From: Prevotella multiformis DSM 16608
GTDB lineage: Bacteria > Bacteroidota > Bacteroidia > Bacteroidales > Bacteroidaceae
Length of the DNA stretch: 64,000 nt
Assembly (NCBI RefSeq): GCF_000191065.1
Contig: NZ_GL872283.1
Location: 124,001-188,000, forward strand
Direction of reading: 5' to 3'
Shown here: positions 3,570-57,512 of the stretch, piece by piece
Position numbering within the stretch: position 1 is the first letter of the stretch
Layout of the letters: each line of letters opens with the position of its first letter
Position numbers and translations under genes: made by a program
Notes under the pieces: generated by a model
What the model was told of the DNA's origin: nothing
What the model saw: the letters and a program-made list of their open reading frames with translations, nothing else
Databases searched by the model: none

Positions 3570-4586
3570 ATGAAAGCAAAAATGAAACTCCTTATCAGCT
3601 GTCTGCTGGCAGCCTCCCTGACAACTGCGGCCTACAGCTGCAAGGGGAAAACAAACAACAACAGCAATACAACCGACACCGCCGCCACCGCGAAACCTGC
3701 CGGTCCCAGATTTGATGCCGATTCGGCCTACTCCTACACGGCGGCGCAATGCCAGTTCGGTCCCCGCACGATGAACTCCGCCGCACACGAAGCCTGCCGG
3801 AAATGGATCGTCGGCAAGTTCAAGCAATTCGGCTGTGAGGTGCAGGAGCAGAACGCCGATCTGAAAGGCTACGACGGTACCGTGCTGAAGTCGACGAACA
3901 TCATCGCACGCTTCAATCCGAAAGAAAAGAAACGCATCCTCCTCTGCGCACACTGGGACAGCCGCCCATGGGCCGACAACGACCCGGACTCCACCAACCA
4001 CAGGAAACCGGTCATGGCAGCCAACGACGGTGCCAGCGGCGTGGCCGTCATGCTCGAGATAGCCCGCCTGCTGCAGGCCGACAAGAAGTTTGCCATGGGC
4101 GTGGACTTCGTCTGCTTCGATGCAGAAGACTGGGGCGTGCCACAGTGGGAGACAGACTACCAGGACACGGGCGACTCGTGGGCGTTGGGCGCACAATACT
4201 TCTCGAAGAACCTTCCCGCCGGCCCCAAGCCGGAGTTCGGCATCCTGCTGGATATGGTAGGAGGCGAAGGCGCACAGTTCTACCGGGAGGGCATGTCGAT
4301 GCAGTTCGCACCGGACATCGTCAGCCGCGTGTGGGAAGCGGCCAGGTCCGCCGGATGCGGTTCGTACTTCCCCGATGCCGTGGGAGGAATGGTCACCGAC
4401 GATCATGTCCCCGTAAACCAGAACAGCGGCATCCCCACCATAGACATTATTCCTTATTATCCTGACTGCCAGCAGAGCTCTTTCGGGCCGACATGGCATA
4501 CCGTCAACGACACGATGGAGCACATCGATAAAAACACGTTGCAGGCGGTCGGGCAGACTGTGATACAGGTGCTGTACACGAAATAA
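3570..4586 (+). CDS. Glutaminyl-peptide cyclotransferase, M28 family
   Basis: Counting from the ATG at 3570, 338 residues with a hydrophobic signal segment ending near Cys24 (LTTAAYSC), so probably a lipoprotein or exported protein; the lipobox is not perfect. The M28-type fold shows CAHWDSRPWADNDPD, the single-zinc ligands Asp153 (ANDGASG), Glu186 (FDAEDWG) and His310 (TWHTVNDT), and an adjacent Asp187. This one-metal pattern is that of glutaminyl cyclases, not of two-zinc aminopeptidases. The enzyme turns N-terminal Gln into pyroglutamate. In Bacteroidetes this is common on exported proteins after signal peptide cleavage, which fits the periplasm. A second in-frame ATG at 3582 is an equally possible start. 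Confidence 0.85.
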   Translation: MKAKMKLLISCLLAASLTTAAYSCKGKTNNNSNTTDTAATAKPAGPRFDADSAYSYTAAQCQFGPRTMNSAAHEACRKWIVGKFKQFGCEVQEQNADLKGYDGTVLKSTNIIARFNPKEKKRILLCAHWDSRPWADNDPDSTNHRKPVMAANDGASGVAVMLEIARLLQADKKFAMGVDFVCFDAEDWGVPQWETDYQDTGDSWALGAQYFSKNLPAGPKPEFGILLDMVGGEGAQFYREGMSMQFAPDIVSRVWEAARSAGCGSYFPDAVGGMVTDDHVPVNQNSGIPTIDIIPYYPDCQQSSFGPTWHTVNDTMEHIDKNTLQAVGQTVIQVLYTK

Positions 4587-15002: not shown

Positions 15003-15089
15003 TTTTGCCCGACTTGTCCCCTGACAACACCCCTCATCGGTGATTACTCCCCTCTCCATTCGGAGAGGGGTTGGGGGTGAGGCTTGGGC

Positions 15090-15735: not shown

Positions 15736-15877
15736 TAGTAAAATCCTCAAAACGCAAAATAAAAACTGTTGTTTTTCATTGAGCACCACCAAAAGACCAT
15801 CAGTCAGAAAAGCGGCTGCATCCAGCTGCCACGCAAGGACACTCGGTGCAGAGACACATCAGGATTACTTACGTTTT

Positions 15878-16482
15878 GGTTCTTCCGTTAAATGGATAGA
15901 TGGGAATAGAATAAAGGGCTTGTGTACTTGCATAGTATGACTTTCCCAAAACGGATGGTTTTACAAAAGAGGGTAAACTACAGGATAAAAGGCAGAAAAG
16001 ACAAATTGATACGATGCCTGTCCGTCAGCCTGTCTTTCCGTCATCTACAAACAACTTATTCTCAGATCATCAGTGTTTGTAAATATTTTTGTGCAGTTCA
16101 AAGCTGACACATGCTCTTCTGGCTTCTAAAAGATGCCTGATTGATCTGCAGCAGGTGCTCCTTTAGCGTGTTACCAACGCCCTTTTGAAGTCCAATCAGG
16201 CACCTTTTACAAACGACTTGACAACCGATTGATTGACTGCTGGTTACAAACTCCCTTTTTGCACGTGTTCTTTACATTTACAGATGATTTGTTTGAAATC
16301 ATGTAATGGTTTTTCAAAATCTTATCTGTCTTTTCAACGTATTAAAATGAAAAGGTCTTTGACTCGGAGGCTGATGACAGGATAGACAGTTGACGGTCTT
16401 GGCCATGTTTTTGTTTCATCAATCACTTCGGTTCTTCCGTTAAAGCCATATGAAAAGCATCTACGCATTTAACGGAAGAACC
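15878..16482 (+). mobile_element. MITE-like element, copy A, with 8-bp target duplication
   Basis: 605 bp with GGTTCTTCCGTTAAATG at the left end and its complement CATTTAACGGAAGAACC at the right end. The direct repeat TACGTTTT lies immediately outside both ends (15870-15877 and 16483-16490), the mark of insertion. A core hairpin at 16128-16208 pairs AAAAGATGCCTGATTG with CAATCAGGCACCTTTT. A 53-nt hairpin (16430-16482) forms the right end. A promoter-like TACATTTAC lies at 16273-16281. There is no transposase gene. Three other copies lie in the window. The 8-bp duplication and GGnTCTTCCG ends recall the ISL3 family, which is inference. Confidence 0.88.
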
Positions 16483-16981
16483 TACGTTTTCCGCATGACC
16501 CAAGCTTCGGATTTATCCTAAGCAGTCGTTTTTCCGACCATATCATCCATGTTTCACTTGTCACCATACGCTACAACCAGCTTACATCAGTCAATAAGAC
16601 GCATGGCCATGACAACATCGTCGGAATCTTCGAGGACATATATACGGAGATACACGAGTTGACCATGGTCGAAAATACGGGCCGTCATAACAGAAGCCGT
16701 AACTGAAATAACCGGTGCAGAATCAGGCAATCTGATGATACAGAGTATTGAGAACAACAAAAGACCGGAGACGCTTAGAGCAAACGCACAGACTCACTAA
16801 ATCCGAAACTTGAGTAAAGACCACCAAACGGTCATCCGCCACCACCCGCCCTTTCCCGGAAACAGGCGACACATAAAACGAGCAACAGGAACCGGCACCA
16901 AGCCTCTGTCCCCATTGCTCGTTTTGTCGTTTTCTCCAAAAGCGAAGCCTGCCTGCCGGTCTTTCCGACCGGCACAGCCGC
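16483..16981. other. Spacer without recognisable gene
   Basis: Between element A and the GH84 stop codon no frame of note is visible. It holds AAAACGAGCAA (16875-16885) paired with TTGCTCGTTTT (16915-16925) around a 29-base loop, plus the terminator below. Parts of the 16550-16700 stretch read as short protein-like runs broken by stops, which could be an old gene remnant. Confidence 0.5.
16954..16974 (-). terminator. Hairpin after the GH84 gene
   Basis: TGCCGGTC and GACCGGCA pair exactly around a 5-base loop, a few bases past the GH84 stop. The following minus-strand sequence is only moderately T-rich. Confidence 0.55.
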
Positions 16982-23514: not shown

Positions 23515-24115
23515 GGTTCTTCCGTCAAATGCGTGGATGCTTTTCACATAGCTTTCACGGAAGAACCGAAGTGATTCAATAAACAGAAACATAGCCAGGA
23601 CTGTCAACCGGCTATTCTATCACCATCCTCCGATACAAAGCCCTTTTCATTTTAATTGGAAATGCAGCTAAGATTCTGAAAAACCATTACATAATTTCAA
23701 ACAAATCATCTGCAAATATGCAAAACCCGTGTCAAAATCAGGTTTGTAACCAGCAGTCAATCAATTGGTTGTCAAGCCGTCCAAAACAGGTGCTTGATTG
23801 GACTCCAAAAGGGCGTTGGTAACACGCTGAAAGGGCACCTGTTGCAAGTCAATCAGGCACCTTTTAGAAGCCAGAAGAGCATGTGTCAGCTTTGGTTGCA
23901 TGAAAACTGTTTACAAACACCGATGATATGGGAATAAGTTGTCTGTAGAAGACGGAAAGGCAGGCCGATGGACAGGCCATCGTATCAATTTGTCTTCCTG
24001 CATTTTATCCTGTAGTTTATCCTCTCTTGTAAGACCGCCTGATTCAGGACAGTCATACCATGCAAGTGCATAAGCCTTTATTCTATCTCCAATCTATACA
24101 TTTAACGGAAGACCC
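23515..24115 (-). mobile_element. MITE-like element, copy B
   Basis: 601 bp, inverted relative to copy A. GGTTCTTCCGTCAAATG begins it on the plus strand, and the far end reads TTTAACGGAAGACCC, one base off the expected terminus. The 53-nt end hairpin is 23515-23567. The core hairpin is 23783-23865. The promoter-like box on the minus strand lies at 23712-23720 (CATATTTGC). Flanking octamers do not match, so any target duplication has decayed. Confidence 0.85.
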
Positions 24116-48945: not shown

Positions 48946-49449
48946 GGTTGTTCCGTTAAATGCGCCGATTGAAAATAAAGGCTTCTGCACTGACGTGTCT
49001 TTTCCGTCTTCTACAAACAACTTATTCCCCTATCATCGGTATTTGTAAACTGTTTTCATGCAATACAAAGCAATACATGCCCTTTTAGCTTCTAAAAGAG
49101 GCCTGATTGGCTTGCAGCAGGTGCCCTTTTAGAGCCTTACCAACGCCCTTTTGGAGTCCAATCAGGCACCTTTTTGAAACGGCTTGACAACCTGTTGATT
49201 TACTGCCGGTTGCAAACTCGCTTTTTTCGCACGTATTTGTATATTTGCAGCTGATTTGTTTGAAACAATGTAAAGACTTTTCAGATCCTTGTCTGTATTT
49301 CCAACGTATCAAAATGAAAAGGGCTTTGTATCGGAGGATAATAATAGGATGGACAGCTGACGTTTTTGCCCATGTCTCTGTTGAATGAATCACTTCGGTT
49401 CTACCGTCAAAGCTATACGAAAAGCATCCACGCATGGAACGGAAGAACC
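48946..49449 (+). mobile_element. MITE-like element, copy C, internally shortened
   Basis: 504 bp, same orientation as copy A. GGTTGTTCCGTTAAATG begins it and GGAACGGAAGAACC ends it. About 100 bp are missing from the left part compared with A, B and D. The core hairpin is 49094-49174, the promoter-like TATATTTGC is at 49240-49248, and the end hairpin is 49397-49449. It lies ~260 bases upstream of acpP and points toward it. No target duplication is seen. Confidence 0.85.
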
Positions 49450-56920: not shown

Positions 56921-57512
56921 GGTTCTTCCGTTAAATGCGCGGATGCTCTTCGTATAGCTTTAGCGGAAAAACCAGAGTGATTCATTCAACAAAAACATGG
57001 TCAGGACCGTCAACTGGCTATCATCATCCTCCGATGCAAAAGGCTTTTCATTTTAATACATTGAAAATACAGACAAGGTCTTGAAAAACCATTACATAAT
57101 TTCAGACGGATCATCTGCAAATATAAAAAAAACGTACAAAAAGCAAGTTTCTAACCAGCAGTAAATCAATTGGTTGCCAAGCCGTTTTAAAAAGGTGCCT
57201 GATTGGGCTTCAAAAGGGCGTTAGTAACACGCTAAAAGGGCATCTGTTGCAGGCCAATCAGGCATCTTTTAGAGGCTAAAAGGGCATGTGTTGCTTTGCG
57301 TTGCATGAAAACAGTTTACAAATACCGATGATAGGGGAATAAGCTGTCTGTAGAAGACGGGCTGATGGACAGGCATCGTATCTATCTGTCTTTCCTGCAT
57401 TTTATCCCGTAGTTTATCCTCCTTTGCAAGGCCATCCGATTTTGGACAGTCATGCCATGCAAGTGCATAAGCCTTTCATCAGTTTCCAATCTACGCATTT
57501 AGCGGAAGAACC
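56921..57512 (-). mobile_element. MITE-like element, copy D
   Basis: 592 bp, inverted relative to copy A. GGTTCTTCCGTTAAATG begins it and GCATTTAGCGGAAGAACC ends it. The flanks TTTATATG and CTTATATA agree at six of eight positions, consistent with an aged target duplication. End hairpin 56921-56973, core hairpin 57189-57270 and, on the minus strand, TATATTTGC at 57117-57125. Confidence 0.87.

Follow-up and report, generated by a model that had tools for sequence, protein, structure and literature searches.

The window analysed here (the whole stretch of 64,000 nucleotides from Prevotella multiformis DSM 16608) carries four copies of a non-coding repeat that, in our firm judgment, belong to one MITE family moved by an ISL3-family transposase supplied in trans, with a transposase of the type found in a related genome (G363) as the candidate. 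The family is rich in copies, which share inverted ends and 8-bp target duplications; empty sites exist, and the relative carries an ISL3 element with ends of the same type. An earlier note, made from the letters of the window, had described a MITE-like family and suggested, by inference, a link to ISL3. Both proposals were borne out, the former by short, non-coding, multicopy elements with inverted repeats, duplications and empty sites, the latter by the G363 element with the same ends, an ISL3 transposase and 8-bp duplications.

The four copies of the window

All four copies lie where the earlier note had placed them (Table 1) and, at 504-605 bp, have the small size, the multiple occurrence and the non-coding character of a MITE; copy A fully contains no ORF of at least 80 aa. 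Copies A and C point one way and copies B and D the opposite way, and the short length of C is due to an internal deletion close to its left end. Each of the four copies has a single occurrence of a core 21-mer (at most 2 mismatches), which none of 100 shuffles contains.

Table 1. Positions in the window of the MITE copies and of the features at the ends of copy A
Feature	Position	Strand	Length	Remarks
MITE copy A	15878..16482	+	605 bp	
Target duplication of A, left	15870..15877	.	8 bp	TACGTTTT
Target duplication of A, right	16483..16490	.	8 bp	TACGTTTT
Palindromic right end of A	16430..16482	+		second inverted copy of the terminus
MITE copy B	23515..24115	-	601 bp	84% identity to A; flanking octamers 4/8
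MITE copy C	48946..49449	+	504 bp	flanking octamers 4/8
MITE copy D	56921..57512	-	592 bp	flanking octamers 6/8

The claim that the copies share their ends stands for near-matching inverted ends and fails for exact ones. In the window, the exact 17-mer GGTTCTTCCGTTAAATG is found at the left ends of A and D only and its exact complement at the right end of A only, the remaining copy ends deviating from it by 1-3 bases. Copy A has the terminal inverted repeats of a MITE, with arms of 25 nt that are 92% complementary. The inverted termini had been recognized correctly in the earlier note, but a palindrome at the right end of A (16430-16444 versus 16468-16482, 15/15) had been overlooked; this second inverted copy of the terminus is also present in the consensus of the copies from genome G325. 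The octamers on the two sides of A are identical, as claimed, and A is alone in this within the window; the count given earlier for D was the same on re-reading.

The location of the copies in spacers is corroborated by the neighbouring genes that Pfam recognises: A has a DUF4254 gene on one side and one of GH84 type on the other, B sits after a TonB-dependent receptor gene, C immediately follows an acyltransferase gene and D lies immediately upstream of a gene with a YbjQ domain at its end. Another spacer of the window (15032-15085) holds the hairpin-like sequence CCCCTCTCCATTCGGAGAGGGG, which has 17 listed matches in P. denticola (86-98%, query 4033-4100) plus two longer ones; it is a REP-like repeat separate from the MITE.

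Family size, target duplications and empty sites

The earlier note had made its reading depend on the existence of further copies, and these are plentiful both in the window's genome (G000; 3.06 Mb in 25 contigs, 98% complete) and in several other Prevotella genomes. The search of G000 with A scored the best 40 of 117 candidates; of the 70 loci that were read, 67 have an alignment with A that exceeds 350 bp, which at ~600 bp each amounts to ~1.3% of the genome, and 52 copies have two ends 560-680 bp apart. An estimate of ~75 copies, based on 164 matches to the end motif with at most 2 mismatches, was abandoned, as this tolerance can also admit the internal copy of the end. Ten further genomes, picked for their end motifs, were searched with A, and eight of them gave matches, part of which are short: at least 53 in G363, 50 in G325, 52 in G147 and 47 in G161 (40 candidates scored per genome), 33 in G394, 6 in G399, 2 in G344 and 1 in G315, with none in G323 and G384. 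The end motif (at most 1 mismatch) is present in 19 of 398 same-genus genomes. An exact scan for the core 21-mer in 84,980 species genomes, a collection that may omit the window's own species, matched 25 stretches, of which 18 are in Prevotella (P. jejuni 12, P. veroralis 2, P. histicola 2, P. denticola 1, P. vespertina 1) and one is in Hoylesella shahii; the other six, in other taxa, are taken for chance matches. Neither plasmids nor phages gave a match to A, and the core 21-mer was not matched exactly in viral contigs.

The flanking octamers, with an A+T content of 82%, agree at 7-8 of 8 positions in 17 of the 52 two-ended copies of G000, as compared to a mean of 0.88 and a maximum of 5 in 2000 shuffles. 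The corresponding values are 9/23 in G325 (shuffled mean 1.05, maximum 6), 7/9 in G147 (1.1, maximum 5), 5/8 in G363 (0.75, maximum 5) and 2/7 in G161 (0.27, maximum 2), the last two equalling and not exceeding the shuffled maximum. Looking for empty sites, as the earlier note had suggested, was successful at the family level: two of the seven MITE copies tried have a clean one, and one of these is in the window's genome, but none is clean for A. The copy at locus L101 of G363 has its empty site in both G147 (103/112) and G161 (107/112), and that at C2:216171-216770 of G000 has one in P. denticola, where the flank matches overlap by exactly 8 bp. Comparison with P. denticola yielded no clean junction at C2:412363 or C2:19299. 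Nor could a clean empty site be read for A, C or D, all of which lie where the gene order is broken relative to P. denticola, and B lies within a 6.5-kb stretch lacking any P. denticola match.

The insertions avoid ORFs, as an ORF of at least 120 aa crosses the insertion junction in 7 of 49 cases versus 35 of 49 when the point considered is shifted by 350 bp, and show no evident orientation preference. Three MITE copies (L103, L114 and L115) in the genomes G161, G363 and G147 have nearly the same flank on one side; to judge by these flanks, some insertions appear to predate the divergence of the three genomes, unlike the one at L101.

A candidate ISL3 partner and the alternatives

The candidate partner in G363 is an IS of 1306 bp with ends GGTTCTTCCGTTAAATG and GGCTCTTCCGTTAAATG, which match the MITE end at 17/17 positions on one side and 16/17 on the other. 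Its 406-aa transposase has the ISL3 transposase domain (PF01610, 3e-71; NF033550, 4.7e-93), with a match to Zn_ribbon_ISL3 above the cut-off (5.5e-6) and one to HTH_Tnp_ISL3 under it (20 bits, cut-off 27.4). Four identical intact copies are present in G363, further copies being damaged. The 8-bp target duplication of ISL3 elements is seen in two of the three copies with flanks read (AAATAATA; TAAAAACT), the third agreeing at 4/8, and both duplicated sites are empty in G161 (112/112 and 105/112). A full ISL3-family IS with matching ends, as the earlier note had envisaged, and also with 8-bp duplications, is found in a relative and not, in intact form, in the window's genome. Close relatives of the transposase occur in pieces in P. 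histicola (90-92%), G399 (85-95%) and P. jejuni (94-95%, part of them at contig starts). At E ≤1e-60, 24 of 398 same-genus genomes have a relative, with 41-63% identity beyond G363, G394 and G399. No close relative was found in P. denticola or in G000 (best 28% identity), and as the search of the window's genome turned up no intact cognate IS, the present mobility of the MITE there is unproven.

The ends of the MITE and those of the IS agree on average at ~20-21 of 24 positions. Copy A matches the IS at 24/24 positions at one end and at 85% over 33 nt at the other; beyond the ends there are ~100 nt at 62% and shorter matches, all weak (E 0.006 or worse). The similarity is essentially confined to the ends, the core having no convincing homology to the IS. 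A separate pairing of the two MITE ends with the two IS ends, as A has it, was dropped because over 97 copies either MITE end matches both IS ends about equally. A 638-bp element of P. histicola with these ends retains part of the transposase gene and is an internally deleted form of such an IS; the MITE core would not clearly have arisen in this way.

In the mechanism that we propose, the MITE, having no coding content, would move at the DNA level: GGTTCTTCCGTTAAATG-type ends would be recognised by an ISL3-family transposase acting in trans, and the element would be inserted into A+T-rich spacer DNA with duplication of 8 bp. The copies of G000 may have been moved by a G363-type transposase or by a close relative of it that has been lost or is absent from the assembly.

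The absence of the G363-type IS from the window's genome would fit with a different transposase that recognises similar ends, and other Prevotella ISL3 elements do share with the MITE a GGTTC start and 8-bp duplications; the ISL3 of G147 has ends GGTTCTTCCGGAATTTGG and GGTTCATCCGACATTTC. We consider this unlikely, given a comparison of 17 other ISL3 loci (relatives at E ≤1e-60): about 11-12 gave an end pair, one of them spurious by length, and six had identical octamers, but the 17-bp MITE end was found at none of those with an end pair, although L256 has a subterminal AAATGCGTAG in common with the MITE-type end. The window genome's own ISL3-type element (L041 915-2354, C2) was rejected as the partner, as its ends, GGGTCAGTCCTAAAA, are quite different. 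At another locus of this genome (L133 755-2435, C1) a MITE copy is split by a different insertion with ends GAGGGTGTGTCAAAATGCAAAT, whose interior includes a segment with GGTTCTTCCGTTTTTCGGGTTGATAAG-type ends on its two sides, close to a weak ISL3 match.

It is very improbable that the element is now immobile and kept by the host as a structured RNA, a terminator or a regulatory spacer element. The 605-nt fold of A is indeed more stable than that of 20 shuffles (z -5.5), but inverted ends by themselves raise fold stability; some segments of the core are less divergent than its remainder (0.04 per site across 30 columns in one case), but an RNAalifold analysis of 46 sequences of the core yielded -1.07 kcal/mol without a single compensatory pair. 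With no Rfam match in the window at the gathering threshold and no terminator-like site around A, a function at the RNA level was rejected, and the perfect duplications and empty sites show movement. Least credible of all is identity with PINSR of Prevotella intermedia and P. nigrescens, a dispersed intergenic repeat of a Prevotella sublineage and in this respect alike. PINSR is described by its authors as 188 bp long and without terminal inverted repeats, and their PCR panel is reported to have given no P. denticola signal (PMC4755523), whereas the present element is ~600 bp long with inverted ends. No P. intermedia or P. nigrescens title is among the 25 stretches with the core 21-mer, from a collection that may lack both species. 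Overall, movement by an ISL3-family transposase of the G363 type remains our preferred explanation.

Copy history, gene order and known relatives

The copies of G000 have a mean pairwise identity of 0.81 and a median nearest-neighbour identity of 0.87, and in a tree of 97 copies one clade holds 47 of the 50 from this genome, with L140, L155 and L156 outside. L156 (713-1300, C1), where the duplication is perfect (CAAATTTT), shares 92.9% identity with a G147 copy versus 83.9% with the closest sampled copy of its own genome; the copy sets of G000 and G147 have a mean identity of 73%. It is likely, from these identities, that L156 is a recent arrival from another species. In P. denticola, a close relative of the window's genome (84-98% identity over aligned blocks), the matches found comprise one full copy and one short fragment, of which the former shares 90.7% identity with a G325 copy and no more than 75.6% with copies of G000. 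Horizontal transfer is the simplest reading of these relationships and is likely; the family would have entered new species and then multiplied in each; an old polymorphism with loss could have produced them instead. The four-fold divergence from P. denticola is 0.115, from which no date was drawn because the ORF set contained spurious antisense frames.

The three gene-order breaks of the window relative to P. denticola contain A, C and D. The comparison, which covered ~0.92 of the 1.95 Mb of the P. denticola contig, also revealed strong scrambling of C2:4001-438881 of G000 (40 collinear blocks in ~435 kb). In this region, 6 of 10 MITE loci are at block boundaries, versus 32 of 128 spacers of at least 150 bp (P 0.02) and 20 of 64 spacers of at least 400 bp (P 0.057), the spacers being crude and ORF-based; the association of the MITE with boundaries on C2 is weak. 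Copy A and the copy at C2:283155 are at boundaries with their duplications intact, which is evidence against recombination through these two copies. We would suggest only tentatively that the MITE travels among oral Prevotella, radiates in each species by means of a borrowed and then lost ISL3 transposase, and helps to scramble gene order.

A MITE, its candidate driver and empty sites for both are thus available in common human oral bacteria, and the 67 loci of the window's genome versus one full copy and a fragment in P. denticola make the timing and cause of a MITE burst testable. The copies are also repeats able to confuse assembly and the annotation of spacers. Our search of the literature on Prevotella with MITEs, and on ISL3 with MITEs, found no such Prevotella element. 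An ISL3-linked MITE has already been published for Microcystis; the large multi-species family in Prevotella, itself well supported, is a new addition to this known kind.

Among described elements, BrickBuilt and other MITEs of Porphyromonas gingivalis are alike in being intergenic MITE-like repeats of an oral member of Bacteroidota; unlike the present family, they are described as having different ends (for instance AAGACCTTTGCA / CCGAAAGGTCTC), tandem repeats of 23 nt in their interior and a duplication of varying length (PMC4596501). ISL3-family IS share GGxTCTTC-type ends and 8-bp duplications with the Prevotella MITE, as exemplified by the reported GGGTCTTCGGA ends and 8-bp duplication of Tn7546 (PMC9782665), but the MITE has no transposase. 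The ISL3-linked MITE of Microcystis aeruginosa, compared here by its description, differs in its size (187 nt versus ~600), its 9-nt conserved ends and its cyanobacterial host; it is likewise non-coding, with 8-nt duplications, and its inverted ends match the termini of an ISL3 element (GGCTCTTCG; PMC11448079).
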